Of a DNA stretch of 64,000 nucleotides, positions 1,510-64,000 are shown piece after piece. The notes under the pieces are model-generated. The model was not told the DNA's origin. It did not search any database and saw only the letters and a program-made list of their open reading frames with translations. Within the stretch, counting starts at the first letter, position 1. Each line of letters starts with the position of its first letter. The translations under genes were made by a program, and so were the position numbers. Location of the stretch: contig CM065802.1 in assembly GCA_033398695.1 (NCBI GenBank), positions 210,633,096-210,697,095 of the forward strand, in the 5' to 3' direction. This DNA comes from Orobanche coerulescens. Lineage: Eukaryota; Streptophyta; Magnoliopsida; Lamiales; Orobanchaceae.

Positions 1510-1860
1510 GAAACTAAAAATCTGGGCAGGTAGGACACGGCCGAGTTACCTTTGGCACGGCCGCATCTCAAAACAGGAGGGTTTTATGCTTATTTTGAAT
1601 AGAAGGACACGACCGAGTGTCAGGACACGGCCGAGTCTAAGGACAGTAAGAATTTGGTTTTCTAGAACAGTATGACACGGTCGTGTCACAGGACACGGCC
1701 GGGCCTCAATACAGTGAAAATTTGCTTTCTGACGGAGTACGACACGACCGTGTCATAGGACACAGCCGAGTCGATCGACAGTGGGTTTTGGCTTATTTAG
1801 AACAGTTCGACACGATCGTGTCATATGCGACACGGCCGTGTCAGTCAGTCTTATATAAAA
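1510..1860 (+). promoter_or_regulatory. internal promoter-like block: palindrome array plus TATA
   Basis: An array of 12-14 bp near-palindromes (GACACGGCCGTGTC and variants such as GACACGATCGTGTC), arranged as pairs in a unit of roughly 80 bp, ends nine bases before TATATAAAA at 1852-1860. A pyrimidine-rich leader follows. The same array type stands before the TATA box in this element's 3' LTR (6860-7174). Its place between pol and the env-like gene suggests a separate env promoter; that is inference. Confidence 0.6.
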
Positions 1861-2893
1861 GGGAGCGCGGCTGATTCCCCATTTTTATCTTCTCCAAATT
1901 TTATTTTTCTTCCTCCCTGCGAACCCTAGCTTCTGCACTTCTGATTTTTCTCTTCATTTTTAAAGAAATTTTGTGCAAAATCGAGGAGAGATACAAGAAT
2001 CTACTACGTAATCATCATTTTTCAACCAATTTCACTCTTCAAATGAGAAAATCGGACGAATTGGGACCGGGCTTTAATTTTTTTTCTCTCTTCAATATCT
2101 CCGAAATCAAGGTATGTTTCTCATGTTTTTGATGATTATTCTTGGTTATGAACATGCTATGATGATTTGAATCGCTAGTCCTTAATTATCTAGGGTTCTT
2201 GAATAAATTGAAGGTGATGAAATTTGGGGATTTTTGATAATTCTTCATGCTTGAAAATTCTTGTAATTAAGGGATGATTTCCATGATGAAGATGATGAAT
2301 TTAAACGATAGATTTTGCTTGGGAGTTGTTTTGATCGATAATGTTTATCTTGGGGGAATTTTATTGCTTGCTATAAGTTTGGGGGAGGAATACATTCTCA
2401 AGTCCTTGGATAATGATAGATTGAAATTTTTGCAGAAAATGGCACGAGGAAGAGGACGAGGAAATTCACAACACGGAAGGGGCAGGAATGGCGGGGAACA
2501 AGTGCAGCCGGCAAGAATGGCTATTCAAAGGGCTGTGGAAACTCCGGAGTCTTATGGAATCAATCTCCCTGAAACACAATATGAAAGGTGGGAAATGCTG
2601 GGTCAGAAAAAAATGCTCCCCACGAGGTGGCCCGATGACGAATGCATGAACGCAATGGGGATAAGGGAAGATGTGATGAAATTCCTTGAAAGAGTGCATT
2701 GGGCGTGGATGATGACTCAACAATGGCCGACTTATAGGTGTCTGACGATGGAGTTTCTCAGCACTCTCACTGTAAGAAGAGATCTGGTGACTCGAGAACC
2801 GACCGAAATGACATTCCGGATCAACAACAACGAAGAGAGACTGACTATCGTCCAGTTGGAGGAAATTTATCATGCAAGACACAACGGCCATTA
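1811..2893 (+). repeat. tandem direct duplication, copy 1
   Basis: Matches 2894-3970 at an offset of 1083 bases. By eye the first ~780 bases are the same in both copies. Copy 1 runs from the last palindrome pair through the TATA box, leader, intron and N-terminal env-like exon. It stops abruptly at CGGCCATTAC, where copy 2 begins with CACGATCGTG. Only two bases (AC) are shared at the junction. Confidence 0.9.
2112..2435 (+). other. putative leader intron of env-like gene, copy 1
   Basis: Donor AATCAAG|GTATGT at 2112 and acceptor TTTTTGCAG ending at 2435, three bases before the ATG at 2439. Both match plant splice consensus. The interior is T-rich. The repeat copy has the same sites at 3195 and 3518. 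Predicted from sequence only. Confidence 0.55.
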
Positions 2894-2957
2894 CACGATC
2901 GTGTCATATGCGACACGGCCGTGTCAGTCAGTCTTATATAAAAGGGAGCGCGGCTGA
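2439..2957 (+). pseudogene. env-like ORF, N-terminal fragment (duplication copy 1)
   Basis: The ATG at 2439 directly follows the predicted acceptor. It opens with an RG-rich stretch (MARGRGRG), then a region like the Athila ORF-1/env-like family (WPDDECMNAMG, FRINNNEERLTIVQLEEIYHARHNGHY). The frame is open to the duplication junction at 2893, then reads into promoter sequence and stops at 2957. It keeps the undamaged N-terminal reading frame but has lost the C-terminal two thirds. No signal peptide is visible. The function of these proteins is not established; an envelope role is only the historical proposal. Confidence 0.7.
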
Positions 2958-3970
2958 TTCCCCATTTTTATCTTCTCCAAATTTTATTTTTCTTCCTCCC
3001 TGCGAACCCTAGCTTCTGCACTTCTGATTTTTCTCTTCATTTTTAAAGAAATTTTGTGCAAAATCGAGGAGAGATACAAGAATCTACTACGTAATCATCA
3101 TTTTTCAACCAATTTCACTCTTCAAATGAGAAAATCGGACGAATTGGGACCGGGCTTTAATTTTTTTTCTCTCTTCAATATCTCCGAAATCAAGGTATGT
3201 TTCTCATGTTTTTGATGATTATTCTTGGTTATGAACATGCTATGATGATTTGAATCGCTAGTCCTTAATTATCTAGGGTTCTTGAATAAATTGAAGGTGA
3301 TGAAATTTGGGGATTTTTGATAATTCTTCATGCTTGAAAATTCTTGTAATTAAGGGATGATTTCCATGATGAAGATGATGAATTTAAACGATAGATTTTG
3401 CTTGGGAGTTGTTTTGATCGATAATGTTTATCTTGGGGGAATTTTATTGCTTGCTATAAGTTTGGGGGAGGAATACATTCTCAAGTCCTTGGATAATGAT
3501 AGATTGAAATTTTTGCAGAAAATGGCACGAGGAAGAGGACGAGGAAATTCACAACACGGAAGGGGCAGGAATGGCGGGGAACAAGTGCAGCCGGCAAGAA
3601 TGGCTATTCAAAGGGCTGTGGAAACTCCGGAGTCTTATGGAATCAATCTCCCTGAAACACAATATGAAAGGTGGGAAATCTTTGGAGTCGAAAAATGCTC
3701 CCACGAGGTGGCCCGATGACGAATGCATGAACGCAATGGGGATAAGGGAAGATGTGATGAAATTCCTTGAAAGAGTGCATTGGCGTGGATGATGACTCAA
3801 CAATGGCCGACTTATAGGTGTCGACGATGGAGTTTCTCGGCACTCTCCGTAAGAAGAGATCTGGTGACTCGAGAACCGACCGAAATGACATTCCGGATCA
3901 ACAACAACGAAGAGAGACTGACTATCGTCCAGTTGGAGGAAATTTATCATGCAAGACACAACGGCCATTA
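2894..3970 (+). repeat. tandem direct duplication, copy 2
   Basis: Second copy, six bases shorter than copy 1. Differences lie in the last ~300 bases and are mostly 1-3 base indels: near 3680 (AATCTTTGGAGTCG against AATGCTGGGTCAG), 3781 (TTGGCG against TTGGGCG), 3822 and 3840-3850. TATA is repeated at 2935-2943. Confidence 0.9.
3195..3518 (+). other. putative leader intron of env-like gene, copy 2
   Basis: Same donor (AAG|GTATGT) and acceptor (TTGCAG) as the intron at 2112-2435, shifted by 1083 bases. Confidence 0.5.
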
Positions 3971-4900
3971 CCCGATAAACCGGTTCGCTTGTGAGACTTA
4001 TTGTAGATCCATGGTAGAATACCCGGGGAGTGAGGCGCGATATTATATTGCAAGATTGGCTAAAGGATCGAACATTCGCAATCCCGTGCTCAGATACCTA
4101 CACAAGGTGATTGCGAATACAATATACGGCCGAAAGAAAACCGGGCCCATTTCACTTCGGGAGTTATACATCCTGACTCACATGCTCGACAACTCTATTC
4201 CAGCAACCGGGGCTATGGTAGCGAAACATTTTGAGGATGTCGCGACAAAGCCAAAGGGGGAGATATGGATAGGGGGTTTGATTACCCCTATCGCACTTCA
4301 CTTCGGTATTTCCGTAGATCAGAGGACTCCCCTTCCTGTAAATAAGCTTCTCTCGATCTCCGTGATGAAGGTGATGAACATCCTGGACTATGAACAGCGC
4401 ACAGTCTTCATGCAGACCGACAACGACCACTTCCTTCTCCCGAATCCGCCTTTGACAACCATAAATAATATTCGGGATATGGGAAATCTGCAAATGGCCA
4501 CGGAAGCACACCGACGAGCAAGGATGGCAGCTGGATTGGCTCCCCCGGGTCACAGCCCTATCGACCGAAATGTTCGACCTAGGCGCATTATGGATGAAGA
4601 TAGAGCAGAAAGGATAGAAGAGGAGGAGGATTATGAAAGAGGCCCAGATGAAGAGGAAGAAGAAGAGAGCGAAGAAGAAGAAGAAGAAGAAGAAGAAGAA
4701 GAAGAAGAAGAAAGAGAGATCGGCCCGAGACGTCAAGGCGGGCCGAAATTGGACGTGCCCCCTCGCGCCCATCATTAAGGGAGGAGTTCGTAGCCTACCG
4801 AGAGGAGGCTAGACGGGAGCGACGTGAGACATTGTCTCTTGTGAGACAAATGTACGAGTGGCATGTCCAGCAAGGCCACTTCCCTCCGCCCCACCAGTAA
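3522..4900 (+). pseudogene. Athila env-like / ORF-1-type gene, frameshifted (copy 2, full C-terminus)
   Basis: Starts at ATG 3522 (MARGRGRG). The frame breaks near 3680 and between 3781 and 3850, then runs open from about 3851. The central part (NRFACETYCRSMVEYPG, GPISLRELYILTHMLDNS, HFGISVDQRTPLPVNKL) resembles the Athila ORF-1 / plant transposon protein family. Near the C-terminus is an acidic low-complexity run coded by (GAA)n at 4660-4712, giving more than 20 Glu. One frame stops at 4776-4778. A one-base shift there would continue to TAA at 4898-4900 with a tail ending in HVQQGHFPPPHQ, probably the ancestral end. No convincing transmembrane segment is visible. Family fairly sure, function unknown. 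Confidence 0.75.
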
Positions 4901-6453: not shown

Positions 6454-8221
6454 TGATGAGTCGATTGTTGATCAACTCATTCTGTTCTTTCTAGTCGTGG
6501 TATTTTGTGTTTTTAATTTATAGGTAATCTAGCGAAGATTGTGGTGAAATATGCGTTCTCATAGCTAATATTGGAGTTTATGACGATCAAGAGCTAAAAC
6601 GGGGCCTAAAACGACGAAAGATTGAAGCAGTATCGGTCGAATCGTCTAAATTCCAGAATCTCAACTCCGAATTTAGATGTGTTCTCCTTTGACATAAATT
6701 CCTCGTGAAATTGGCTTCGAAACGGTATATCATATGCTAAATTCCGAGGTGTATTGATACAAGAATGAAGGATCAAGCCGAAGAAGACCAAAAACCGGAC
6801 TTGGCTGCACCAGGCGACTCGACTTGGCTGCACCAGGCGACTCGAGCCACATCAAGTAACTCGGCCGTGTCATAAGACACGGCCGGGTCTCATTCCAGCG
6901 CGAACTGCATTTTGCAGAAGAGTACGACACGGCCGTGTTAAGGGACACGGCCGAGTCACCATACAGTCGGTTTTGTGTTTCCTGTGCAGTACAACACGGC
7001 CGTGTCATGGGACACGGCTGAGTCTCAATACAGAACCCCTTTTCCTTTATCCAGTGTAGTACGACACGGCCGTGTCCCAGGACACGGGCCGTGTCACTTT
7101 TCGGTTCATGTCACTTTCCTTGACATTTTTGCACAACTATAAGCCTTTTCTTGATACTTTTGGCTATAAAAAAAGGAGGTGGTGACCCTTGAGGATATAT
7201 GCTTATCTTGTGGGAGATATTTTTGTGTGGAAAACACAAGATTAGGGAGGAAAACACCAAAAAGAGTGGAAAAAGAGAGATTTTCATCATCTTCCTTGTA
7301 TGTTCTTAGAGTGGAAAAAAATACATTTGTGAGATATAATAATTCCTTGTATCATTTTGTTGTGAATTCTTGAAAGAGGATCATCATACCTTCATCGGGA
7401 GTTCGATTTCGGGATTTACAAGGGAAGTTTCTACCATGTTTTGTTTTACAATTTCCATTATTGTTATTGAAATAATCATGTGTAGCTAATTTTTTCATAT
7501 GGGTTTTTAGATATAGCCACACACATGTTTTCGATTGTTAGTTCCTTTTGATTTTTCAGGTAAAAGTTTGGGATTTTTCCTCTTGTTCGTTCTTTGTTTA
7601 AGAACTTTTGATTTAGATCATCAAACCTATTTCTTAGTTGTTATTATTATTCAAATCGAGGATTTTTGTCGGTGTTCGCCATCAAACGACCCGATAGAAG
7701 CGATTGTGAATGTTCTAAACCTTTTTCCGTGATCTTTTAGCGAATTACCCCATCAAAGGTATTAGCTAGAGATTGTTAGTAGATATTCGTCCCCATCAAA
7801 GGAGTGTCTCTTATTTTCGTTAAGAACAATCGTGATTTTAGAATTACCGCCATCAAACGGATTTCTTTTAATCGTGAGCAATCAATAATTCCAACCTTAA
7901 TTCTTTGTGTATCGGAACTAATAATTGATTACGTGTGTGTCGGTGACTCTAAATTCCCATATCAATCTCATTATTGTTATCCCTCAATTATCCGGCAATT
8001 AATTTGGTGTTGTTATCGCTTTGTTTATTTTTATGCGTTATTAATTGTAAACTTATCAACCAATGATGTATTAATTTATTTTACTTTTGTTCATTCGACT
8101 ATTTGCCAAACATTATCGAACTTTAAACCGTTTCCAATTCCTCGAGAGATCGACCTCGGAGTTACTTGACGCTTCCTACAAAAGCGATTCGTACACTTGC
8201 GAGTATTTAATTTGTCCATCA
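6454..8221 (+). repeat. Athila-like 3' LTR
   Basis: Begins TGATGAG right after the polypurine tract and ends CATCA at 8217-8221, giving 5-bp terminal inverted repeats TGATG/CATCA and a length of 1768 bp. The possible target duplication on the right is AAGAC (8222-8226); the left partner lies outside the window. It contains the palindrome array and TATA box at 6860-7174. The last 550 bases repeat the phrase CCATCAAA six times if the terminal copy is counted. The 3' boundary is inferred from the usual CATCA end of Athila LTRs. Confidence 0.7.
6860..7174 (+). promoter_or_regulatory. Athila LTR U3 promoter: CGGCCG palindrome array and TATA box
   Basis: Four units of about 75-80 bases, each holding a pair such as GTACGACACGGCCGTGTC and GGACACGGCCGAGTC, lie at 6860-7096. 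TATAAAAAAA follows at 7165-7174. Same unit as the internal block at 1510-1860. Confidence 0.65.
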
Positions 8222-9128: not shown

Positions 9129-9148
9129 AATAAGTTTCGTCCCAAAAT

Positions 9149-13360: not shown

Positions 13361-13365
13361 TCAGT
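13361..13365. repeat. target site duplication TCAGT (left), nested Tekay element 2
   Basis: TCAGT here and at 22237-22241 flank the plus-strand element exactly at its LTR ends. Confidence 0.92.
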
Positions 13366-15382
13366 TGTAATATCCGTAATTTTCCCATTTTTAGCAGTTT
13401 CCATTTTTGGTGTATGTCTATTTTTATTGACTCGCTTGTAACCGTTTCGACATTTCGAATCTATTTTGTTCTTGGAGTTTTTCCATTGGGATGAGTTTTG
13501 ATGATGTTTTCACGTAATTTCGTTTTATGACATGTTTTGCCGTATGAACGTTCGATTCTTGTAAAACTCGTTCGCTGCTATTTCCGGGTTTGTACAAGTT
13601 CGTATGGTTGAGTTGGTCTTGTGGAGACTTTCGTTCGTCAGAACCGACGTCGTTTCGTGATTTTCGCACTTGGGCCATTTTTGTAATTTCCTAATAGTTT
13701 AGGGAATCTCGCTTTCGTTGTCGCATTACGGACCCTTTGGTGGTCGGAATTGTATTTTCTTTCAGCACTTAGCTCCGCTGCCTTGTATGCTTCGTGTTCA
13801 TGTTCCCGATTCGGTCTCGCCGTGTGTATCGTATCGTACTCGATGCCAGCCTTACTATCGATATGACATCGCAGATCAATCGTTGCGGTAGGTAGCGCAC
13901 GCTACCCCTGTTGCCTTGCGTGCGCTATCAAGAACAGTTAGCGTATGCTAACCCTTATTGTTAGCGTACGCTAACGAATGTGGCGATAGCCATCGGACTG
14001 CCGCGGCCCCGTTAGCGCACGCTACATATGGCGATTAGCGTGCGCTAACTTCACACTATATAAGCCCAATGCGCTTTGAGCAGTAGCTTTCATTCTTTTC
14101 CTTCGCTTTCTTCGACGTGCGCCCTCGAGGCGATTTCCATCGCCCGATCGGCGTTCTATTCACATTCCATCACCGTAGAGTTGTGCTAACATATTATCAT
14201 CAGATAATTGTCATCCATCATCCGAAATCAAGGTAATTTCGTCTAGAACCCTAACTCGTCAAATTTGGGGGGTTTTCCGGGTTTTACTAATTGGAACCGA
14301 ATTATTCCAGTATGTTAGGATATTCTTCACCGATTGTGATTGTTGAATGATTCCAAATCCAATTTCCTTGATTTTAATCCGCGAATTATCGATACGGGGA
14401 GATTTTGCGTAAACCCTCGCCCGTATCAATTGATCGTCTATTGTCGTTATTGGTAATCGGGGTTTTGGGAGTATTCCTTTCGATTATTGATGTCCGTTGG
14501 GACTGAGTTATGCTAATTCTTCGTTTAGGAACCATCGTTGTCCATTCGGATCATCCGTAGTCACTTTTCACTTCCGATTCTTCGAAGAATGTCTCAAAGG
14601 CAAGTACTTTACATTTGTTTACATGTTCTAGTATTTGAATTATGGCTGTATCGTGGTTGTTGTGGATGGTTATGTGTATGTTCACCTAGGGACGGTCCGA
14701 CGGGGCCTCTAGGGATACGTATTGCCGTGAGTGTGCGTATCGTGAACTGTGGTTAGCCACCTGTGGATGTCCGACGGGACTCTGGGTACGGTGGCCGTGA
14801 GTCTCGTGCCAACGGTTAACTTTGAATTATGATTTGTTGGAGATAATGTGTTTGTGTTTGTACATCATAAATATTCCTAATATAAAATGTTTTCTAAAAT
14901 GATTTTCGCGCATGTATTCATCCGATTAGAATGTAGTTCAAATGGATTGTACTTGCACTAGCGCTTGTCGCTAACCCTTAAATGGGGAAATACTTTTGTA
15001 TTTCGTGTATTGATCGTGGGGACAAACGAGCACTCGGGCCGTATGAGGATGATGGGCAAGCATGATATTGTCCAAGATTTGATTTTTCGATGTTATGTCC
15101 GCTTGGGTTGCTATTGATGTCCGATTTTGGGATTTATGTATTATAAAATTTGTTTAAGTACTCGAGTACTTCCTGCTTGAAATTGTTAATGTTGTGTTCC
15201 CGCTTTGGGAAATGGATTTGATGTCAAATTTTAATTGTCGGTTTGTAGTCTTTTATTTGAATTGTCGCTTTTATTAATGATAGTTAGTCGTTGTCGAATG
15301 TCTTGTTGGTATGTTAGCTCAGTGGATTCCACGGTGGGGTCCACGGCGCTGTAATATGCCCCGAACGCCTTGGGGTGTTACG
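13366..15382 (+). repeat. Tekay element 2, 5' LTR
   Basis: TGTAATATCC to GGGGTGTTACG (last base altered from A), 2017 bp. Contains the palindrome array and TATA box, a donor-like AATCAAG|GTAATT at about 14233, a GC-donor-like AAAG|GCAAGTA at 14600, and a repeated GACGGTCCGACGGGGCCTCT block near 14690-14810. Confidence 0.92.
13888..14063 (+). promoter_or_regulatory. Tekay element 2, 5' LTR promoter: palindrome array plus TATA
   Basis: Palindromes such as GTTAGCGTACGCTAAC, TTAGCGTGCGCTAAC and TAGCGCACGCTA precede TATATAA at 14057-14063. The last palindrome ends about 7 bases before it. Confidence 0.65.
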
Positions 15383-20220: not shown

Positions 20221-22236
20221 TGTAATATCCGTAATTTTCCCATTTTTAGCGCTTCCATTTTTGGTGTATGTCTATTTTTATTGACTTCGCTTGTAACCGC
20301 TTTCGACATTTCGAATCTATTTTGTTCTTGGAGTTTTTCCATTGGGATGAGTTTTGATGATGTTTTCACGTAATTTTGTTTTATGACATGTTTTGCCGTA
20401 TGAACGTTCGATTCTTGTAAAACTCGTTCGCTGTTATTTCGGGTTTGTACAAGTTCGTATGGTTGAGTTGGTCTTGTGGAGACTTTCGGTCAGTAAATCC
20501 GACGTCGTTTCGTGATTTTCGGGCACTTGGGCCATTTTTGTAATTTCCTAATAGTTTAGGGAATCTCGTTTCGTTGTCGCATTACGGACCCTTCGGTGGT
20601 CGGAATTGTATTTTCTTTCAGCACTTAGCTCCGCTGTCTTGTATGCTTCGTGTTCATATTCCCGGATTCTCGGTCTCGTCGTGTGTATCGTATCGTACTC
20701 GGCCAGCCATCGGCCGATATGACATCGCCAGCATCAATCTTTGTGGTAGGTAGCGCACGCTACCCCCGCTTTGGCGCGTGCGCTATCAAGAACAAGCTTA
20801 GCGACGCTAACCCTTATTGTTAGCGACGCTAACGAATGTGGCAAAGAGCCATCGGACTGCCGCGCCCGTTAGCGCACGCTACATATGGCGATTAGCGTGC
20901 GCTAACTTCACACTATATAAGCCCAAATGTGCGCTTTGAGCAGTTAGCCATTCTTTTCCCTTCGTTTCTTCGACGTGCGACCTCGCAGGCGATTTCCATC
21001 AGCCCGATCGGCGTTCTATTCACATTCCATCACCGTAGAGTTGTGCTAACATATTATCATCGTATAATTGTCATCCATCATCCGAAATCAAGGTAATTTC
21101 GCTCAGAACCCTAACTCGTCAAATTTGGGGGTTTTCCGGTTTTACTAATTGAACCGAATTATTCCAAAGATGTTAGGATATTCTTCACCGATTGTGATTG
21201 TTGAATGATTCCAAATCCAATTTCCTTGATTTTAATCCGCGAATTATCGATACGGGAGATTTTGCGTAAACCTCGCCCGTATCAATTGATCGTCTATTGT
21301 CGCGTTATTGGTAATCGGGTTTGGGAGTATTCCTTTCGATTATTGATGTCCGTTGGGACTGAGTTATGCTAATTCTTCGTTTAGAACCGCCGTTGTCCAT
21401 TCGGATCATCCGTAGTCACTTTTCACTTCCGATTCTTCAAGAATGTCTCAAAGGCAAGTACTTTACATTTGTTTACATGTTCTAGTATTTGAATTATGGT
21501 CAGTATCGTGGTTGTTGTGGATGGTTATGTGTATGTTCACCTAGGGACGGTCCGACGGGGCCTCTAGGGATACGTATTGCCGTGAGTGTGCGTATCGTGA
21601 ATCGTGGTTAGCCACCTGGGGATGTCCGACGACTCATGGGTACGGTGGCCGTGAGTCTCGTACAACGGTTAACTTTGAATTATGATTTGTTGGAGATAAT
21701 GTGTTTGTGTTTGTACATCATAAATATTCCTAATATAAAATGTTTTCTAAAATGATTTTTGGCGCATGTATTCATCGATTAGAATGTAGTTCAAATGGAT
21801 TGTACTTGCACTAGCGATTGTCGCTAACCCTTAAATGGGGAAATACTTTTTGTATTTCAGGTATTGATCGTGGGGACAAACGAGCACTCGGGCCGTATGA
21901 GGATGATGGGCAAGCATGATATTGTCCAGTATTTGATTTTTCGATGTTATGTCTGTCGGTTGCTATTGATGTCTGATTTTGGGATTTATGTATTATAAAA
22001 TTTGTTTAAGTACTCGAGTACTTCCTGTTTGAAATTGTTAATGTTGTGTTCCCGTTTTGGGAAATGGATTTGATGTCAAATTTTAATTGTCGGTTTGTAG
22101 TCTTTTATTTGAATTGTCGTTTTATTAATGATAGTTAGTCGTTGTCGAATGTCTTGTTGGTATGTTAGCCTGGTGGATTCCACAGTGTGGGGTCCACGGC
22201 GCTGTAATATGCCCTGAACGTCTTGGGGGTGTTACA
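20221..22236 (+). repeat. Tekay element 2, 3' LTR
   Basis: TGTAATATCC to GGGGGTGTTACA, 2016 bp. Co-linear with the 5' LTR but with many 1-2 base indels, for instance two palindromes whose centres shrank from AGCGTACGCT to AGCGACGCT (about 20799-20831). GC-donor-like AAG|GCAAGTA at 21454. Confidence 0.92.
20748..20920 (+). promoter_or_regulatory. Tekay element 2, 3' LTR promoter: palindrome array plus TATA
   Basis: Same array as in the 5' LTR, with two damaged palindrome centres, before TATATAA at 20914-20920. Confidence 0.6.
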
Positions 22237-22241
22237 TCAGT
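22237..22241. repeat. target site duplication TCAGT (right)
   Basis: Second copy of the duplication flanking element 2. Confidence 0.92.
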
Positions 22242-24282: not shown

Positions 24283-24755
24283 TTATAAAACCTGGGCATT
24301 CGTTACGTACGTTACTTGAGCTGGTTAACGTACGTAATGCTCATTACGTACGTTAACCCTCAAGTATTAGCGTACGTAATGGCTGGGTAGAATAGTCTGT
24401 CCCAAAACGCTGAGGTCGCTAGCGTACGCTACATCAACCAGTTAGCGTACGCTACAAGAGGCTTACGTACGTAACACCAACGTCTTTACGTACGCAAGTG
24501 TCTGTGCAAAACTGGACAGACTCACTGTCCAAAAAAGCTGGGTTCGATAGTGTACGCTACGACAGATAGTTTAGCGTACGCTACCATGGGCTTTACGTAC
24601 GTAACAGAAGATGTTAACGTACGTAATGGCTCGGACCGAACAATCTGTTCAATCTGCTGAAGGCCATAACGTACGTTAGCAATAAGCTATAACGTACGTT
24701 ATGAAGGTGCCGATAGCGCACGCAAGAAAGCATGCATAACGCACGTTATGCATGC
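24283..24755 (-). promoter_or_regulatory. Tekay element 1 LTR promoter: palindrome array plus TATA
   Basis: About fifteen palindrome-like sites (GTTACGTACGTTAC, TTAGCGTACGCTAC, TAACGTACGTTAG, TAACGCACGTTA) between 24300 and 24755, upstream in minus orientation of TTTATAAAC at 24283-24290. Confidence 0.65.
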
Positions 24756-27084: not shown

Positions 27085-27850
27085 CAAGAAATTAAGGACT
27101 TCTCCGATTGAATCCTCAAAATTGTAGATGGTGAGCTGGGTGAAGAAGTCTATAGAGAAACCTTGATTGATATTCTTGATATTTAATAATCCGGAATGCC
27201 GAAGATCATATTACAGCCACTGTTGAAAGCACTATCATTCACTTATAAGTAACTTTTCATAAAGTATTTTGAATAAAGAGCAATCCCGGCGCCAACAAAC
27301 GACGTTGTGGAGATTGTAAACGATTACGTGATGTCTATAATTTCAAAGGACAATCGGATATATCTCAGTTTTGATAGTATATGCAAAATCTCCGCGACCT
27401 CTAAAAGTCAAAATCAAGTATATCCAATGCATTTTTTTGAATAGCATCAAGTGTTCTACAATTCCAAAATCACATCTTGAAATCGTAAGTTAGAGTCTCA
27501 ATTATGCTAATTCAAAATATGGATCAATCACCAGGATTATGCAATGTCACATCATTAATAATTATCCAAATTTGTACCCATATTATTGAACAAAAAAATT
27601 CGGAGAATAATTTTGAGAGTAAAGTACTTATTCCACAATTGATATTAAACCCGTTAGATAGCAGATTACCATTTAAATTTTAAATACGTCAGTTCCCACT
27701 TATTATGAGTTTTGCCATTACTATATTTAAGAGTCAAGGTCAAACGCTCTCTTATGTTGGTATATATCTTCCAAGACCCGTATTCGGTCATGGTTAGATT
27801 TATGTAGCCATATCAGGAGTGAATATCATGAAAGACTATAAATTTTTTGC
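27085..27850 (+). pseudogene. Helitron helicase (C-terminal part), degenerate
   Basis: Translation in shifting frames gives pieces in the order of the Pif1-like helicase of plant Helitrons: EIKDFSD*ILKIVDGELGEE, then APTNDVVEIVNDYVMSI-like at 27290-27340, DNRIYLSFDSICK at 27350-27385, then remnants of the LPNH-LKL, PIML and LPFK-RRQFP segments, a SRLPFKF-like piece near 27660, and LPRPVFGHG then IYVAISGV near 27768-27825. Many stops and frameshifts. The N-terminal Rep/HUH nuclease is not seen. The family call rests on several motifs in order and on the terminus just downstream. Confidence 0.7.
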
Positions 27851-27970
27851 TGCGATGAGAATGGTGTAATCATAAACAGAACAATTAGTGTAGTGTATAA
27901 AGAAATATTATGAAATTTATAATGAACGATTTACATATTATATATTTACATAATAGTTCTTTTTTGTGTT

Positions 27971-27999: not shown

Positions 28000-28000
28000 T

Positions 28001-39740: not shown

Positions 39741-39745
39741 ATAAT
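39741..39745. repeat. target site duplication ATAAT (right)
   Basis: Partner of ATAAC at 31021-31025; one C-to-T change. Confidence 0.85.
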
Positions 39746-39916
39746 GTACGCTACGTAGGAGACAGAAGCTACTCGATTGAAATGAAAAGCAGACAAGCTA
39801 TGCCGCATGAAAGGGTTACGTACGCTAAGGGTGTTACGTACGCTACGAAGGTAGCATAACGTACGCTAAAGCTAAAAAGGGAGCAACGACTAGTTTGGCA
39901 CTCAAGCCTATAAATA
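39746..39916 (+). promoter_or_regulatory. copia (plus) 5' LTR promoter: palindromes plus TATA
   Basis: GTTACGTACGCTAAG, GTTACGTACGCTAC and TAACGTACGCTAA lie 40-85 bases upstream of TATAAATA at 39909. More sites of the same array were displaced to 30685-31018 by the insertion. Confidence 0.6.
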
Positions 39917-40545: not shown

Positions 40546-41958
40546 TTGTATCTTTTTCTATAGAATAAATATCAACCTCTGCACCTCTCTTCTATCGGTC
40601 GAGGGATTACCGTTACAATATCGTCTTCTATCGGTCCGAGATAAACCGTCACACTCTTGTCTTTATGTCGGTCCAAGATAAACCGTTTTCCTTTTCTATT
40701 GGACAATGAAGCAATCTATCTAGCTTTCTATATGTACTAGACAAACCTCACTCGGATTTAGATATGATTCTAACAATGCCGGATCAACGATTCTAACAAC
40801 ACCGAATCAATCTACAATCCGTATTTTTCTTCTTGTATATGATTTAGTGTATGAACACTCAAACACTATCAATTAAGCTCGATTACAAGAACGATAATAT
40901 ATATGACAATATCAGACTTATATATCGTTTGCTCAGAGTTGTTGTATTTTGAATACCATTAGAAGTGGTATTTATAGGCTCCAAAACCTCAACTAGCCGT
41001 TAGTCCACTGCCTCTCTTTAGCGTGTGTTGTTACCCAAAATATTATCCGGAGATGATATGCTGGAATGGACGAGTAACAAACAAAATGCGAGAACACGTC
41101 CGTGGGGAAGTAAATAACACAAGATTTGCCGGGGTTGTTAGTCCCGGGCTTGAATGCTCTCGCGAGATATTATTAATACGAATACTTGAGAGTACAAATA
41201 TTAATGTTAGAGTACAATTATAATTAGTGTAAAGACTCTAGTTATCTTAGCTCTTGAGTGCTGAAGACTGCCGGAAGAACTAGAGTTGAAGCTCTGTGAG
41301 TTCTTGTTACAAAGATGAGGAGTTCTCTGTATTGTTTGTTGTGTGTAATCGTGTTAACGTTGTCACCTCTTTTTTGCTAATGCTGGAGGCCTCCTATTTA
41401 TAGGAGAAGAGGTTGCTGGGATGTCTCTATCTCCCACGGGCGATGGCCATTCGTGCATTTAAATAAGGCGGGCGATCGTCCCAGTATGTGGGACTGTTTC
41501 CTTAAAGTCCGCAGCTGCTGCTGGCAGCCAGATGTGCGAACCAATGAGGAGGAGACAGATGCCTCTTCTCGTTGTCTTGGTAGGTCCCACCTAGGACATT
41601 TCGGCGGGTCTGTCGGTAGGTGAGACCTTGTTTGAATTCATATTCAAACTCATTACGTACGTGAAACTCCTTGTGTTACGTACGTTAAGTGTTGCTCGAT
41701 ATCGTGCGCTAATCGTTGTCTGTAGGGTGCGCTAATTCATTAGCAGGTGACTTTTCTGTCTCGTCTGATCAGGTGACCTTACTGACCCGTCTGATCAGGT
41801 GACTTTACTATATGATCTGATCAGTTAGCGTTTCCCGACTGATCTGGTCAGGTGACTTTTCCCGTTCCGAGCGTCTTTGACTTCTTTGTTGTTTTGCTTT
41901 GATCGACAACACATCATCAAAATATTTTTATAATTATATGGAATTGAATATTCCAACA
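40545..41958 (-). repeat. copia A, 3' LTR, truncated and chimeric
   Basis: Matches the 5' LTR (44053-45253) from its U5 side up to about 41028 and again from 41626 to the end TTCCAACA at 41958. Between these the sequence is foreign (597 bases). The outer U5 end is cut off at 40545. Confidence 0.82.
41029..41625 (-). repeat. foreign LTR-like segment inside copia A 3' LTR
   Basis: Replaces the part of the LTR found at about 44695-44935 in the partner. In minus orientation it has a TATA-like box (CCTATAAATAGG, near 41390-41405) and a leader. It may be a promoter/leader piece from another LTR family. No ORF supported. Confidence 0.5.
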
Positions 41959-44052: not shown

Positions 44053-45253
44053 TGTTGTAAAATTATCGGTACCTTCGTCGTTTGGAAATAGCGCGGAGTA
44101 TTATAGAGTTATCAAACTCTTTTGCGTTGCGGAAGCGATTTAAAGTGCAGAAAGATAAACGGCACAAGATTTATAGAGGTTCGACCAATTTTGCCTACGT
44201 CCTGTCTCTGTATCTTTTTCTATAGAATAAAGATCAACCTCTGCACCTCTCTTCTATCGGTCGAGGGATTACCGTTACAATATCGTCTTCTATCGGTCCG
44301 AGATAAACCGTCACACTCTTGTCTTTATGTCGGTCCAAGATAAACCGTTTTCCTTTTATATTGGAGATAGAGGCAACCTATCTAGCTTTCTATGGGTACT
44401 AGACAAACCTCACTCGGATTTAGATATGAATCTAACAATGTCGGATCAATGATCCTAATAACACCGAATCAATCTACAATCCGTATTTTTCTTCTTGTAT
44501 ATGATTTAGTGTATGAACACTCAAACACTATCAATTAAGATCGATTACAACAACGATAGTATATGTGACAGTATCAGACTTATATATCTTTTGCTCAGAG
44601 TTGTTGTATTTTGAATACCATTAGAAGTGGTATTTATAGGCTCCAAAACCTCAACTAGCCATTAGCCCACTGCCTCTCTTTAGCGTGCGTTATGCTTCAT
44701 CCATAGCGTACGTTATTGCCATTACGTACGTTATCACCTTCCTGTAGCGTATGTTATCTGCTTGCTGATTTAGTCCAGTGGCTTATGTCTCTTCCATTAC
44801 GTACGTTGTATCTTCCACATCGTACGTTAAATTGGTCCTGTTACGTACGTTAAGTACATCACATTACGTACGTTAACTTTAGTCAAAATATCTGTTGCAT
44901 GCTGACCTACTACATGACGTCATTTTCAACGGCTCCTTGTTGAATTCATATTCAAACTCATTACGTACGTTAAATTCCCAGTGTTACGTACGTTAAGTGT
45001 TGCTCAATAGCTTGCGCTAGCGTGCGATAATTCATCAGCAGGTGACTTTTCTGTCTCATCTGATCAGGTGACTTTACTGACCCGTTTGATCAAGTGACTT
45101 TACTGTCTAATATGATCAGTTAGCGTTTCCCGACTGATCTGGTCAGGTGACTTTTCCTGTTCCAAGCGTCTTTGACTTCTTTGTTGTTTTGCTTTGATCG
45201 ACAACACATCATCAAAATCTTTTTATAATTATTTGGAATTGAATATTCCAACA
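44053..45253 (-). repeat. copia A, 5' LTR
   Basis: In element orientation TGTTGGAATATTC...TTTTACAACA, 1201 bp, with 5-bp inverted ends TGTTG/CAACA. Confidence 0.88.
44631..45010 (-). promoter_or_regulatory. copia A 5' LTR promoter: palindrome array plus TATA
   Basis: Sites such as TTACGTACGTTAA, TAGCGTACGTTA and TTAGCGTGCGTTA between 44680 and 45010, upstream (minus) of TATAAATA at 44631-44638. Confidence 0.62.
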
Positions 45254-45549: not shown

Positions 45550-46790
45550 TGTTGGAATATTTTATCCCACACATTTAATTTAGAGGTTTTGATGATAAGT
45601 TGCTAAACAAAGAAAAACAACAATTAATCAACACGGAGTTGAAGATACTCGAGATGGGACAGAAAAGCACCAAAGTAATCATTAGTGAAGCTAACGTACA
45701 CTATAGCAAAGACATAACGTACGCAATGTATCAAGACGGTGAGTACTGCCTTCTGCTCGAAGCACGTAGCACACGCTAATACAAAGATTAGCGCACGCAA
45801 GAAGGATACCATAACGTATGCTACGTGGCATGGCTAATGTACGCTATGAGAAGATGAATTATGAATTCAAATAAATCAATCCGTTGGATTGATTCTAGAA
45901 AGTCAAAAAGCATTCAATGGATATGAAGCATAACGTACGCTACGAGGTGTTCTTAACGTACGCTAAAGCATGTGACGTCATGGAGTAGGTCATCATGTCA
46001 ACGGCTATCTGAGGGTGATATAACGTACGCTGTGATGAAGGATAACGTACGTTATGTAGGAGACAGAAGCTACTGGACTGAAATGAAAAGCAGATAACGT
46101 ACGCTACAGGAAAGGGTTACGTACGCTAAGGGTGTAACGTACGCTACGAAGGAAGCATAACGTACGCTAAAGCTAAACATGGAGCAACGGCTAGTTTGGC
46201 TCTCAGGCCTATAAATACCAAAGCATTTGATATTATTTAGTACAACAACTTCAAGCAAAGCTTATATACTTCAGATATCATTATCTTCATTATTGTTGTT
46301 GTAATCGATCTTATTTGTTAGAGTTCGACTGTTCGATACACTCAATCAATACACGAGAGTAAAAAAAGGATTATAGATTTGATTCGGTGTTATTAGGATC
46401 GTTGATCCGGTATTATTAGAATCATAATCTAAATCCAAGTGAGGTTTGTCTAATATAATTGAAAGCTAGATAGGTTGATTCCTTGTCCGATAAGAAAAAA
46501 AACGGTTTATCTTGGACCGACATAAAGACAAGATTGTAACGGTTTATCTTGGACCAATAGAAGACAAGAGTGTAATGGTTTACCTCGGACCAATAGAAGA
46601 CAAGGCGGAAAAGTTTATCTTAATCCTATAGAAAAAGATACGAAGAGAGGATGTAGGCACATTGCCGAACCTCTATATATCGCTGTGTCATTTACATTCC
46701 ACACTTAATCGCTTCCGCAATCGCAAGAGAATTATATATTCTTAACCGCGCTATTTAAACCCTCTTTTAGTAGTGGTACCTAACCCAGCA
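45550..46790 (+). repeat. copia (plus) 3' LTR
   Basis: TGTTGGAATATTTTATCCC...ACCCAGCA, 1241 bp, uninterrupted. It shows the original sequence at the Tekay derivative's target (GGATAACGTACGTTATG, about 46039). Confidence 0.9.
45690..46217 (+). promoter_or_regulatory. copia (plus) 3' LTR promoter: palindrome array plus TATA
   Basis: About a dozen CG-N2-CG sites (TAACGTACGCTAC, TTAACGTACGCTAAA, TTAGCGCACGC) between 45690 and 46165, then TATAAATA at 46210-46217. Confidence 0.65.
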
Positions 46791-48763: not shown

Positions 48764-49206
48764 TATTTATAGAAAATGACCATTAGCGCGGGCTACTGCT
48801 CCTTTTTAGCGTGCGCTAACGGGCTCATAGCCCACTGTCTCTTTCTATTCTAGGCTTAACGTATGCTAAACAGCCTTTACATACGTTAAATACAACAGTT
48901 AGCGTATGCTACCACGCTACCATAGCATGCACTAACTGCTTTACCAAGCTCACTGACCTCACTGTAGTCGACTTAGCGTGCGCTAGCATTTCTCTCATAG
49001 CGTGCGCTAAGCACCGTTGACTCGACTTTTCCAAAAGCCGTCCAGGTTCATCCCGACATGTACTTATCCAAAATCCGTGATCCGATCTCACCTAACAACC
49101 TGTCTCAATCATGCTGACCACATATAGCGTCTGCTAAGTCTCAACTTTAGCGTGCGCTAGCTCACATATTTAGCGTGCGCTACACTTCCATGTTAGCGTG
49201 CGCTAA
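48764..49206 (-). promoter_or_regulatory. Tekay element 3, 3' LTR promoter: palindrome array plus TATA
   Basis: About a dozen sites, mostly TTAGCGTGCGCTAA, between 48783 and 49206, upstream (minus) of TATAAATA-type box CTATAAATAG at 48762-48771. Confidence 0.65.
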
Positions 49207-55648: not shown

Positions 55649-57905
55649 TATAACACCCCGAGATATTCGGAATAATTACAGCTTCGTAAACCCTTTAAGA
55701 ATTTACAAGGCTAAATTAAAAAAATACAGATTAATACGAATAATACCATGAATAGTTGTGAAATTTAATAACCGGTTTAATCATCTGAAACAACCCATTT
55801 ATTACAACATTCTCAAATCACCATAAAGAACGCACGTACTCGAGTACTTAATACAAAACAAGAATACCAAAACAAATCAGACGGATAACATCACTATGCC
55901 CCTTCGTCATCATGCCGACACTGTGGTTGCTTCCCCGCTCCTCGGCTACCTGAACATTAAACAAATGTCCACCCCGCAGGGGTTACCAAAACGATGCTAA
56001 TACAAAGTACCATAATTATACAAAATCAGATATGCAACAACAATGCATTGCAAAAACACAAGACACGGACTTCCTCTACGGGAATCCAATAATGCGAATT
56101 CACATGATTCCATCAACACACCACAGGGTATATGATCCAGCGCCCTCAGCATAGATCCTAAGATGATCCCGTCGGACCAACACGAGGTGTAAAAACCCAT
56201 CCAATGATCCAGCGCCCTCAGCATAGATCCCAAGATGATCCCGTCGGACCAACACGAGGTGGACAACTGATCCAGCGCCCTCAGCATAGATCACACGATC
56301 CCATCGGATCAATACAACATGTACAACTCCATTATGCATGCACATATGCAAATCAATATGTTCATCAACATGAACAACATATGATCAATAACATGAACGA
56401 CAATATGACAAATCAACTTGGACGACCTCATGTTCAACAACATGAATGACAATATGCATGATCAACATCATCAACATTAAACCAAAATCAGATTAAGATA
56501 CTTGCCTCAGAAATGTCGACAAGGATTGTTATTTCGAATAACCTTCAACCCGCTCAAAGAACTCTCACTCGATCAATTCACAATATCTGAACCTTAATTA
56601 TACAATAACACCAATATAACTAACAGTTCCGAATAATCGCTTCTAAAACATTATATGAACATGAAAAGACATAACCTATTCGGTTATGATAACACACTAA
56701 TCTGCCCAATCCATATCGGTCGAATCATCACTACAATACTTATCCGAACAAAAATCTCACAATGTTCCAATCAAGTCTAAGCACATCTTTCGATTGAATT
56801 CTTCAACTATACCTCATAATAGTTCGTCATACAAGGATCTTAACCATACCTATCAACAATCCAACGCGACATGATTTCGGAATTATCTTTAAGAACACCA
56901 TAAAACTCGTTACTAGGTTTAACATGATCATTATATTCTTCTACAAGGAATAAACCCTAAGTTCAATCCATTTAGTTCCCCTATACGCATTGTTTGATCA
57001 TATTGTACATAAAAAACTTGATAATGTCAGTAATAAACTCAACAACTTCCATAGCATGTTCATATTCGGCAACAAGAGCATGAAATCCAGATTGGTGAAT
57101 CGCCACATACCTTATACGGAAGGAAAAGATGAAAACACTTGGTGAACTCCACGTCGAACGCTTGAACACCAATCTCAAAGCTCATTGCCTTCAATGATTA
57201 TGTTTAGAGGCTGATATGAAGGGTTAAGGTCAAGAGGGTAACTCTCTAAGTCTCAGAAATCGGGTATAGGACGAAGTGTAAACTGAGAAATGAAATGAGG
57301 TGATGTCCTATTTATAGAAAATGACCATTAGCGCGCACTACTGCTCATTTTTAGCGTGCGCTAATAGGCTCACAGCCCACTGTCTCTTTCTATTCTAGGC
57401 TTAGCGTACGCTAAACAGCCTTTACGTACGTTAAATACAACAGTCAGCGTACGCTACCATAGCGTGCGCTAACGGCTTTACGAAGCTCACTGACCTCACT
57501 GTACTCGACTTAGCGTGCGCTAGCATTTCTCTCATATCGTGCGGTAAGCATCATTGACTCGACTTTTCCAAAAGCCATCCAGGTTCATCCCGACATGTCC
57601 CTATCCAAAATCCGTGATCCGATCTCACCTACCAACCTGTCTCAATCATCCTGACCACACATAGCGTGCTCTAAGTCTCAACTTTAGCGTGCGCTAACTC
57701 ACATATTTAGTGTGCGCTATACTTCCATGTCAGCGTGCGCTAAATGTACATAAGTACGTGAATGAATTAACATCTATGAAATCATACACTCATCAATACT
57801 GAATTATGAAATACGGAGGATTATACTCAGATCAATAATACGACATATGCAATGTCTTAAGGTTCAAATAGAGATAAAATACACATCAGATATTCGGGTA
57901 TTACA
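55649..57905 (-). repeat. Tekay element 3, 5' LTR
   Basis: 2257 bp, co-linear with 47093-49357. Its inner end reads TATAACACC instead of TGTAACACC on the plus strand. Tandem block at 56128-56310, GC-donor-like GAGGCAAG around 56501-56508. Confidence 0.92.
57309..57742 (-). promoter_or_regulatory. Tekay element 3, 5' LTR promoter: palindrome array plus TATA
   Basis: TTAGCGTGCGCTAA and TTAGCGTACGCTAA type sites at 57327-57742, upstream (minus) of the TATAAATA box at 57309-57316, about 12 bases from the nearest site. Confidence 0.65.
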
Positions 57906-60501: not shown

Positions 60502-61545
60502 TGTTGGAGCAAGATCGGAATATGCGCCGTGTTGCGGAAGCGTAAATTAAATGTGCGGAAATTAAACGACACACGGATTTATAGAGGTTCGGCTATAAAC
60601 GATCCTACGTCCTCTCTCGGTATCTTTTTCTATAGGTTCAAGATAAAAACTTCGGCACCTCTCTTCTATCGGTCGAGGGATAACCGTTACAATCACGTCT
60701 TCAATTGGTCCGTGATAAACCACTCGTACTTATCTTTATGTCGGTCCAAGTTAAACCGTTTTCCTTTTCTATCGGACAAGGAATCAACCGCTCTAGCTTT
60801 CTATCGGTACTAGATAAACCTCACTAAGATAGCAATTGCGATTCTAATAATGCCGGATCCTTGATCCTAATAACTCCGAATCCAATCGTATCTTTTCTTT
60901 TACCTCTCGTGTATATGTTGGATGTATAAACACTTAAACTAACAATATAAGCTCAATATCACAACAACAATGTAAGTATATCAATCTTTGATGAATGTAT
61001 GTTTTGCTTGAAGTTGTTGTAGTGAAACAATACCATAAGAATGGTATTTATAGGCATTGGAGCCTTACTAGTCGTTAGCACCCTTCAGACTGCATTACGT
61101 ACGCTATCTTCACTTCATTACGTACGTAAGCTTATTTACGTATGCTAATCCAACCATGTTACGTATGTTAGCTTCTCCCATATTCAGTCCAGTAACATTC
61201 GTTTCTTGTGTTACGTACGTTAGCCATTTATCCATTACGTACGTTAAGGATACGTCATTGCTGACGTCATATATCCGTTGCCGCCTTTTTGACATTGACT
61301 CTTCCCAACGTTCATCTGATTTGAACATCATTACGTACGTTAACTTCCACCTCTTACGTACGTTAATTGCATTATATTACGTATGTTATTGTTCTTCCTT
61401 TACGTACGTTAAGCATGCAAGTTCCATCTTTTTGCACTTCGTTTTCTTCGATGCTTTGCTTCGTCTTTTTGTTGTTTTGTTTTTGTGTATCAACTTAAAT
61501 CATCAAAACATTATTATAGTATGTATGGAACAAAATGTTCCAACA
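60502..61545 (-). repeat. copia B, 3' LTR
   Basis: In element orientation TGTTGGAACATTTTG...TGCTCCAACA, 1044 bp. Followed inside by the PPT, seen on the plus strand as ATCTCCCCCTTTTTGATG. Confidence 0.88.
61045..61415 (-). promoter_or_regulatory. copia B LTR promoter: palindrome array plus TATA
   Basis: About ten sites, mostly TTACGTACGTTA, at 61091-61415, upstream (minus) of TATAAATA at 61045-61052. Confidence 0.65.
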
Positions 61546-62235
61546 ATCTCCCCCTTTTTGATGATTACGAAATAACACTTCTTCAATGGGATTTACCTGC
61601 AAAAATTACAAATATATGTATATGTGTACAGACCAAAAATTTTCGACTTTGTCCATTTCGTTAGTTTCTTCTCCCATTTCTTTTTCGACTCCTTCTTTCC
61701 TTTTCTTTTTCTTTTCGAATTTTCAAAGTTTCATCATCTTTTCGACGTCTCCTCATTTTTCTTTTCAACTTCATCTTTTCGACTTTTCTTCTCCTTTTCT
61801 TCTTTCAACTTCCATTTTTCTTTTCAAATTCAACTTTTCGACTTTTCTTCGATTTTTCTCCCCCTTTCAGGGTTAATCCCATTCTCCTTTCTCCCCCTTT
61901 TTGTCTTCATCAAAAAGTGTAATAAATAACACGAGTAATAAATACCAAATTGATAAATATAACTACATGCATGAATATGGTATAAACTCCCCCTGAAAAT
62001 ATTATCTCCCTTAAAAAAATTATTACTCTCCCTGAGTAAAATATTTTGATAAAAAATCAATTTTTGGGGATCCAACCGAGAGTTGGTTTTTCATTTGAAA
62101 CATAGATGATATTTGAAATATTTGTTTCTTTAGGATCCCAAATCCTTGTAATTTTAATCGTCCGGCGTGGGCTTTTACAGTTAGAAATGTGATGCCCGAT
62201 TTTCAAATATTTTTCGCAATGGGGTATCTTTAAAT
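61546..62235 (-). other. copia B 3' region, pol deleted
   Basis: No ORF is supported; long T- and C-rich tracts on the plus strand produce spurious Phe/Ser-rich frames. Near 62040-62235 frameshifted remnants of the second gag knuckle and of a WIPK-type motif are visible, matching copia A at 42475-42650. Confidence 0.6.
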
Positions 62236-63431
62236 TTAAGGATTCAAACGAGGTGTGAATCCCAACCCCTGTTTATTTAAAGTATATTTCTGAACCGAGA
62301 GCATATTTTCAAATTTCTCATTTCCGAGAGAAAATTTCTTCGTTAAATTTTTGAGCTCGGTTTGCATTTTAACAAGATCATCCTTTAAAATATTTTCATT
62401 TTCAATGCATTTTGAATGATCGATCTCGATAAATTTCCCTTTTTCAAGAATTTTGGAAATCTCATTTTCCAATGATTTATTTTTAGATTTAAGGGATTTG
62501 ATCTCGGATAAAGTATTTTGAAAGTCGGTATACAATAATTCAAATGCTTCAAATAGCTCGTCACGAGAGGATGTACTTACTTGGCTTTCGACGTCGCTAT
62601 CGTCGAATGAACTTCGGGCCATGAGAGCGAGATTATTTTGATTGATAAAATCATCATATTCGTCTTCATCGCTCCATGTTGCAACGAGAACCTTCTTCTT
62701 GGGTTTTTATCGACAATTTTTCGCAAAGTGGTCTGATTTACCACATAATCGACAAGAGTTGTCGAATTTCTTAGATTTGCCCGAGATGTCTTTCTTTCTC
62801 CGGTTTAATAAGGTTTGAAACTTATTAATATTCTTGGCATAATATGCCGCTTCTTCATCGCTATCACCCACCGGAATTTCTTCTCTCTTTGACATCTTAG
62901 TCTTCAAGGCTATCGATCTTTCTTTCGGTTTCGGCTTTGCATTTCGAGATTTAAGGACAATCTCGTAATTTATTAGTGAACCAACGAGGGCACTAAAATC
63001 AAGATTATTGAGATCTTTCGATTCCATAATCGCCATCACCGTTCCATCCCATTCAACAGGTAGTGATCTTAAGATTTTCTTGACTTTCTCACTACTTGAT
63101 AATGGTTTTCCAAACGAAGCAAGTCCATTAGTGATGACCGGAAATCGGTCGAGCATGTTGGTGATGGACTCGTCACCCTTCGTCATGAATAACTCGTAGT
63201 TATGGAGAAGCATATTGATCTTCGTATCCTTAACTTGAGTTGTCCCTTCGTGTGTGATTTCAAGAATTTTCCATATCTCTTTAGCACTTTCACACGATGA
63301 GATTCGATTGACCTCTTCCGGATTTAAGGCACAATATAGAAGTTGAGTAGCCTTACAATTTAGATGGTCGTTCTTCCAATCCTCGTCATTATATTCTTCG
63401 AAACTTTTAAGAGATCCGTCAGATTTGATTA
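62236..63431 (-). pseudogene. copia B gag (SIRE-like), N-terminus cut, pol absent
   Basis: Starts within the N-terminal region at the LTR insertion (SDGSLKSFEEYNDEDWKNDH), then SCESAKEIWKILE, SITNMLDRFPVITNGLASFGKPLSSSEKVKKILRSLP and FSALVGSLINYEIVLKSR. The knuckle reads CRLCGKSDHFAKNC, with the usual Gly before His changed to Asp. An in-frame TAA at 62707-62709 is followed in frame by VATWSDEDEYDDF, the region LALMARSSFDDSDVESQVSTS, a coiled coil (EIKSLKSKNKSLENEISKI) and MLSVQKYTLNKQGLGF, to a stop at 62236. It aligns along its length with copia A gag. Confidence 0.85.
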
Positions 63432-64000
63432 TGTAATACCCGGATTTTCAGTATAAATTTTTCGCGTTATTTTATCTGAGATATACTGTATAGTTTGGTA
63501 TCTATACAGTGTGGATAAAATAAATTGAGAACCGAGACAGTTATACTGGTGTGATTATCGTTTTTGATTGTGGATATATTCAGGATATGTTGTATCAGGT
63601 TGAACTGATTTGGATATCAGGTATACCGTATGAGAATATTTTTGGGTTGAGTATATGTGTATTCAGTATGCCGTATGTTCGTATTTGTTACGTCAAGACG
63701 TTGGACAGGAATTGCTGTAAATGGCTAAGTATGGAAGCCATTACGTACGTTATGTGTTGAAGCTTACATACGTTAAATTGGCAGAGTTACGTACGTTATG
63801 GCCGAGACATTACGTACGTAACAGGGGAATCAGATGATCGAGTCGTGGTCGGCAGGTGGGACCCTGTGTCGGCTGCTTTCGGCGGAGGATGTGGACAGCG
63901 AGTCAACCTCGGCCATTACGTACGTTATGTATGGCATATTACGTACGTAATGTGGGTGGTACTGTAGCAAGTCAACGTATGTATTACGTACGTTATGGTA
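63432..64000 (+). repeat. Tekay-type LTR, left part, running off the window
   Basis: Starts TGTAATACCCGG, the Tekay LTR start, inserted in copia B gag. From 63738 it carries an array of TTACGTACGTTA and ATTACGTACGTAAT palindromes, as expected in U3. TATA and the rest lie outside. Confidence 0.7.
63738..63998 (+). promoter_or_regulatory. palindrome array of the right-edge LTR
   Basis: At least six sites with ACGTACGT cores plus variants (ACATACGT), spaced 10-100 bases. Confidence 0.6.

Follow-up and report, generated by a model that had tools for sequence, protein, structure and literature searches.

Similarly spaced CG palindromes upstream of TATA boxes in gypsy and copia retrotransposons of Orobanche coerulescens

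Why should long terminal repeat (LTR) retrotransposons as distantly related as the gypsy and copia types carry similar arrays of short palindromes just upstream of their TATA boxes? The question is raised by a 64,000-nucleotide stretch of the Orobanche coerulescens genome (GenBank assembly GCA_033398695.1, contig CM065802.1, positions 210,633,096 to 210,697,095 of the forward strand), which we call the window and in which positions are counted from its first letter. The window consists of nested LTR retrotransposons, whose LTR pairs were found by self-comparison and trimmed by eye at TG..CA ends, primer binding sites and polypurine tracts. Three lineages are represented: gypsy elements of the Tekay type (Tekay1 to Tekay4 and a Tekay-like element, Tder), a gypsy element of the Athila type, and three copia elements resembling SIRE (SireA, SireB and SireC). 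The name Tekay was given in an original prediction made from the sequence alone; the domains present are gypsy-type, and the Tekay assignment is provisional.

Arrays of CG palindromes, their position and their spacing

Arrays are present at the places named in the original prediction. Allowing up to three mismatches to a 14-mer consensus, the window contained 55 matches, compared to a mean of 1.88 and a maximum of 6 in 100 dinucleotide shuffles. A site matrix was then derived from 104 RCGNNCGY sites located upstream of TATA in 13 LTRs (for Tekay4, upstream of the window end), and it identified 4-16 sites per LTR, against means of 0.26-0.68 in 200 shuffles of each. The observed number exceeded the largest dinucleotide shuffle in 13 of 13 LTRs, with narrow margins in the disrupted SireB 3' LTR (4 vs 3) and in the two Tekay2 LTRs (6 vs 4 and 5 vs 3). 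The sites are of the type NTWRCGNNCGYWAN in the Tekay-type and SIRE elements and of the type GACACGGCCGTGTC in Athila; one two-site pattern had 0 matches in viral_contigs. Every non-truncated Tekay-type and SIRE LTR of the window carries an array and Athila carries two, which supports the claim that one class of site stands upstream of TATA in both gypsy and copia elements.

Within the Tekay-type elements, Tekay2 (plus strand) has six sites at 13892-14048 in its 5' LTR (TATA at 14057) and five at 20750-20905 in its 3' LTR (TATA at 20914). The 5' LTR of Tekay1 (minus strand) has the largest array, with 16 sites at 24302-24749 (TATA at 24287), and its 3' LTR is shortened and has lost the array. 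Both LTRs of Tekay3 (minus strand) bear arrays, of 11 sites at 48782-49206 in the 3' LTR (TATA at 48771) and of ten at 57351-57743 in the 5' LTR (TATA at 57316), as do both LTRs of Tder (plus strand), with nine sites, mostly CGGCCG, at 31242-31539 in the 5' LTR (TATA at 31547) and 12 at 37206-37526 in the 3' LTR (TATA at 37534). An array had also been claimed for a Tekay LTR at the right edge; this Tekay-type LTR, of Tekay4, starts near 63432 and has seven sites at 63740-63996 (plus strand) before it is cut by the window end. In the copia elements, the 5' LTR of SireA (plus strand) is divided by Tder, with an upstream part of its array at 30670-31012 and a promoter-proximal part at 39815-39869 (TATA at 39909), and the 3' LTR has 14 sites at 45692-46170 (TATA at 46210). 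SireB and SireC lie on the minus strand, SireB with 12 sites at 44680-45030 in its 5' LTR (TATA at 44638) and four sites remaining at 41652-41735, upstream of an insert, in its 3' LTR, and SireC with ten sites at 61094-61412 in its 3' LTR (TATA at 61052).

Sites cluster upstream of TATA rather than lying at random, as had been proposed. Where a TATA box could be recognized (12 LTRs), the matrix placed 121 sites upstream and one downstream, the upstream part making up 36% of LTR length. Because the matrix was trained on upstream sites, this count is partly circular, and matrix-free counts were also made. Using one LTR from each of eight elements (Tekay4 contributing no downstream part), 66 of 103 TWR-6-YWA frames upstream contained CG..CG, compared to 0 of 55 downstream; a further 15 upstream, and 1 of the 55 downstream, contained one CG together with TG or CA. 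Similarly, of the near-palindromic 12-mers, 59 of 84 upstream of TATA had CG..CG at their core, compared to 0 of 39 downstream. The proposed distance of 7-15 bases between TATA and its nearest site holds for most gypsy arrays (8-14 bases in Tekay1, both Tekay2 LTRs, the Tekay3 3' LTR, both Tder LTRs and an internal Athila array) but not for the Tekay3 5' LTR (34 bases), the right Athila array (88 bases from its last clean site) or the SIRE elements, where the distance is nearly constant at 39-41 bases (four LTRs).

A feature absent from the original prediction is that the spacing of the sites is quantised. Spacer lengths were taken at a site score cut of 6, with one overlapping pair of SireB sites treated as a single block. 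The eight Tekay-type and SIRE arrays have 79 spacers, of which 38 measure exactly 9 bp and 49 fall within 8-10 bp, compared to at most 11 and 20, respectively, in 20,000 trials of random placement. The same arrays contain ten spacers of 36-38 bp, spread over seven of the eight (null mean 1.7 arrays, p 1.5e-4). Both Athila arrays alternate spacers of 4-6 and 35-38 bp, and when they are included, spacers of 35-38 bp (a class picked after inspection of the data) account for 17 of 26 long spacers and occur in nine of ten arrays (null mean 2.7, p 5e-5); the exception is Tekay4, whose array is truncated by the window end. In addition, the three promoter-proximal sites are separated by spacers of 4 and then 9 bp before TATA in SireA (39815-39869 and 46116-46170), SireB (44680-44740), SireC (61094-61160) and the gypsy element Tekay1 (24302-24360). 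These counts are not fully independent because sites within one array partly descend from each other, and the three deep lineages are the safer unit for counting.

Two further regularities were sought. Helical phasing was rejected and we make no claim of it, since distances of 18, 23 and about 51 bp do not correspond to whole turns of the helix. Inspection by eye had suggested another motif, resembling RGACAG, within the long spacers, but a scan of 5- and 6-mers found none spread over more lineages than in 200 shuffles, and the idea was dropped; the best 6-mer was found in five groups (null maximum 6) and the best 5-mer in seven (null maximum 8).

A putative dimeric host factor and its alternatives

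On balance we favor, with moderate confidence, the reading that these are binding and activating arrays for a dimeric host factor, with a grammar shared across gypsy and copia. Each array would be an upstream activating region, serving a TATA promoter that drives the retrotransposon transcript, which for the LTR arrays would be the genomic RNA. A two-fold symmetric host transcription factor (or family) would bind the 14-bp sites by reading both half-sites, and the fixed spacers (4, 9 and 35-38 bp) would set the placement of dimers relative to one another and to the TATA complex. The gypsy and copia lineages would have reached the same site grammar through use of the same kind of host factor, and the CpGs would permit a methylation switch. 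What is directly observed is the sites, their place upstream of TATA, their spacing and the near independence of their half-sites; protein binding, activation, the identity of the factor and convergence rather than old sharing are what we infer.

The composition of the half-sites (of the form TWRCG) is easier to reconcile with a protein that reads two of them than with a stem, in which they would have to pair. The 69 sites of eight elements comprise 138 half-sites, of which 55 are TTACG, 40 TAGCG, 35 TAACG, 5 TTGCG and 3 others, and comparison with shuffling showed that half-sites vary freely across the dyad at four of five variable positions. It is because half-sites are largely independent, and because their commonest pair is unequal (TAACG/TTACG, 18 of 69 sites), that we favor the protein. 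The idea of a common host factor, already part of the original prediction, gains from the spacing shared across lineages, while the argument from CpG retention that was made for it fails, as described below. That one host factor or small family reads a grammar of 4- and 9-bp spacers and 35-38 bp gaps, convergently reached by the Tekay-type, Athila and SIRE elements and used twice by Athila (for genomic RNA and for an env-like mRNA), is a stronger proposition, which we advance only tentatively.

Several observations weigh against binding by a shared factor. The evidence is the sequence of one 64-kb window, and sites within an array are partly co-descended, as the visibly related spacers of Athila and, by eye, the long spacers of Tekay1 indicate. 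Agreement across the dyad exceeds chance at position -3.5 (p 0.016) and in the sum over positions (p 0.018). No match to a known factor was found, the NAC core fitting poorly. Finally, inner bases and flanks vary by family, Athila sites having other flanks, which makes one factor for all lineages uncertain. As for the inner two bases, TA predominates in Tekay1, Tekay4 and the SIRE elements, CA/TG is found in Tekay3 and most of Tekay2, and GC predominates in Tder and in Athila. For example, 25 of 25 SIRE sites are CGTACG or CGCACG (inner TA in 23, CA in 2), and CGGCCG is found in Tder and Athila instead.

Two families of plant transcription factors were tried as candidates and rejected. The bZIP factors prefer an ACGT core, and this reading was dropped because 40 of the 138 half-sites (TAGCG) have no A before CG. 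The NAC site model in the available text of PMC4081100 has a core T[G/A]CGT and palindromes CGT-N7-8-ACG; T[G/A]CG occurs in at most 60 of the 138 half-sites (TTACG 55, TTGCG 5), and CGT and ACG abut in CGTACG sites.

The likeliest alternative to a shared factor is that each lineage uses its own unrelated factor, CG-N2-CG being a loose likeness and the common spacing having a physical origin (e.g., packing of any DNA-bound dimer). The family-specific inner bases and flanks would then be expected to differ as they do, short spacers are 4-6 bp in Athila and mostly 9 bp elsewhere, and published Sirevirus motifs vary between elements according to the available text of PMC2829016. Nevertheless, the gypsy elements Tekay1 and Tekay4 and the copia SIRE elements have half-sites, inner TA and 9-bp spacers in common, and all three lineages show the 35-38 bp gap; we regard separate factors as possible but somewhat unlikely.

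A second alternative is that the palindromes owe their retention to hairpins, formed in RNA or DNA, that serve small-RNA production or structure-based regulation. There is a precedent in maize Sirevirus LTRs, where palindromes located, as here, in the LTR cis-region form stable hairpins and are hotspots to which small RNAs map (Bousios et al. 2016, as described in the available parts of PMC5311732 and PMC10760457). Consistent with this, nine of nine arrays of the window fold below the mean of their own dinucleotide shuffles (z -1.1 to -11.4), as expected of palindrome arrays. However, when sites were held fixed and spacers shuffled, seven of eight arrays, unlike the stable hairpins of maize, had no structure beyond their sites (z -1.7 to +1.2), Tekay1 alone showing an excess (z -4.4). 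In addition, the commonest half-site pair would not be expected to be unequal, and it is hard to see what a hairpin would gain from exact spacing, so that this explanation appears improbable to us.

It is likewise improbable that recombination or nested insertion moved U3 blocks from gypsy to copia elements or vice versa, leaving arrays related by descent, even though the elements are nested in one another and Tder lies within a SIRE array. In 15 gypsy-copia comparisons, spacer similarity was below the maximum of 12 shuffles in ten, equal to it in three (among them Tekay3-SireB, at 13) and slightly above it in two (Tekay1-SireC, 9 vs 8; SireC-Tekay4, 11 vs 9), but this test is weak, since even for the related pair SireB-SireC the similarity (12) does no more than reach the shuffled maximum; the other related SIRE pairs exceeded theirs (SireA-SireB, 21 vs 14; SireA-SireC, 14 vs 11). 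No gypsy-copia match of at least 150 bases at the arrays was found among the self-comparison matches. Of the exchange between LTRs envisaged in the original prediction, recent block transfer was therefore not seen (13 of 15 comparisons not above shuffles in the same weak test), and older sharing is compatible with these data.

The original prediction had also taken retention of CpGs as a sign of selection, which did not hold, as in-site CpGs decay like others. In five LTR pairs, 24 of 107 in-site CpGs had decayed (83 kept), compared to 96 of 389 outside sites (293 kept; odds ratio 1.13, p 0.70), leaving out 13 in-site and 32 outside changes of other kinds, and CpG observed/expected was 0.99 in the window outside CGNNCG, indicating no depletion. 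Without SireB (four pairs), transitions were found at 23 of 201 in-site CpG bases and at 90 of 763 other CpG bases (p 1.0). Outside sites, CpG bases had 1.6 times the transition odds of other C/G bases (p 5e-4). Non-CpG C/G bases had more transitions in sites (33 of 207) than outside (182 of 2403), an excess that may come from sites decayed in both copies together with ragged alignment. Because in-site decay equals that outside and background CpG is not depleted, per-copy protection is disfavored, and the arrays probably look intact since the copies are not very old and active ancestors carried arrays. Shielding of CpGs in silent copies (unmethylated islands) as the sole reason for their persistence is very improbable: CpG observed/expected reaches 1.36-1.56 in several array-bearing 2-kb stretches (e.g., from 20001, 24001, 30001 and 36001), but the array-free interior of Tder is likewise CpG-rich (1.70 in the 2-kb step from 34001, despite low GC), and in-site and other CpGs decay equally by both measures. 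This result parts two confusable ideas, the keeping of arrays in active lineages and the protection of CpGs in silent copies, the latter of which was not seen.

An internal array in Athila

A rearranged Athila element occupies the left of the window. Its first array was originally read as an LTR promoter at 1510-1860, a reading that fails on the position of the array between integrase frames (606-1025 and 1029-1319, plus strand) and an open reading frame (ORF) of the ATHILA ORF-1 family PF03078 (2271-2954 and 3771-4775, plus strand; E 4.8e-13 and 3e-17). Because of this location the array is probably an internal promoter candidate. It extends over 1534-1842 (plus strand), with ten sites of GACACGGCCGTGTC (at most four mismatches) separated by 6, 38, 4, 36, 4, 35, 4, 36 and 6 bp, and is followed by a TATA-like box at 1852-1858 (plus strand). 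A comparison with solved structures matched the frame at 606-1025 to foamy virus integrase (E 1.1e-5), and this frame also resembles the integrase-side frame of Tekay1 (28% over 72 residues); a Pfam search gave no family for either the 606-1025 or the 1029-1319 frame. The PF03078 ORF is divided by a tandem duplication at 1810-3976 (98.5% identical, offset 1,083 bp), which carries the last two palindromes and TATA into it. The right array, at 6858-7076 (plus strand), has seven sites with spacers of 4, 36, 4, 35, 4 and 38 bp and a TATA-like box at 7165-7170 (plus strand), and probably lies in the 3' LTR, a second LTR for comparison being absent from the window.

The PF03078 ORF is probably env-like, judging by its place after pol and by the additional ORFs at the 3' side of Athila elements in the available text of PMC11728184, and the internal array would probably direct a separate mRNA for it. 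An ENV ORF promoter has been named in Arabidopsis Athila6A (Panda et al. 2016, PMC4977677). The candidate described here resembles it in lying inside Athila ahead of an env ORF and differs from it in having a palindrome array, none being described in the available part of that paper. Although known from this one copy, at a rearranged end of the window, the internal array is a concrete cis-element candidate for the promoter of an env-like ORF.

Element context, known systems and significance

The Tekay elements contain gypsy-type domains, and a chromodomain (PF00385, E 0.0035) was found in Tekay1 only, below its cut-off. Tekay2 sits within Tekay1, a TCAGT target-site repeat (13361-13365 and 22237-22241) marking the nesting. 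Tder lies inside the 5' LTR of SireA, where it interrupts a CG palindrome of the array (31021-31025 and 39741-39745; compare 46042 in the 3' LTR). Its interior (33751-36991) has no frame longer than 107 amino acids, and Tder may be a non-autonomous element. The region at 26001-30000 is AT-rich (GC 0.28) and array-free, with CpG observed/expected of about 0.8.

SireA, SireB and SireC show the features of Sireviruses that we used, taken from the available text of PMC2829016, namely a polypurine tract at the 3' LTR with repeats and a copia gag, which is present in SireB. The polypurine tract is AGGGGGAG at the SireC LTR, with more GGGGGAG copies at 61858, 61891 and 61987, and CGGGGGAG in SireB; that of SireA deviates (GAGGGAGAG). 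The SireB 3' LTR contains about 600 bp (41030-41625) that the 5' LTR lacks; this insert includes a TATAAATA of its own and no TWRCG-type site, and is perhaps another small element.

Sireviruses are the elements for which comparable arrays have been published. Their repeated motifs (RMs) are numerous CpG-rich palindromes that lie shortly before TATA in the upper half of the LTR (Bousios 2010, PMC2829016), and the available text of that paper places 77 of 79 linker RMs upstream of ENV (section 9), gives the cores as CGG-CCG, Tnd-1 excepted, and calls RMs Sirevirus-specific among copia elements. Like these, the four undisrupted SIRE LTRs of the window have 12, 14, 12 and 10 sites upstream of TATA, compared to four in the disrupted SireB 3' LTR. 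Unlike RMs as described there, the SIRE sites are CGTACG-type and lack the CGG-CCG core, the design occurs also in two gypsy lineages and the spacing is quantised. The counterpart of RMs upstream of ENV is here the layout of gypsy Athila, the SIRE interiors being cut short.

Host factors acting at plant LTR sites include HSF at ONSEN and WRKY at EVADE (available text of PMC12786077). Here, too, a putative host factor reading LTR sites would drive transcription; those cases concern single families with a known factor, whereas the site grammar described here spans three lineages. No report of such arrays in Tekay or Athila was found among top-ranked titles and abstract openings, and, as far as this literature search shows, what is new is that gypsy and copia elements of one genome have this spacing in common.

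The occurrence of similar, evenly spaced palindromes in three distantly related kinds of retrotransposon suggests a common kind of host regulator acting on all three, and, as knowledge of the factor is not required, any assembly can serve to check the spacing rule. If one factor serves all lineages, the retrotransposon load of the genome would depend on a single trans-acting factor, and bursts and silencing of unrelated LTR lineages would be coupled.

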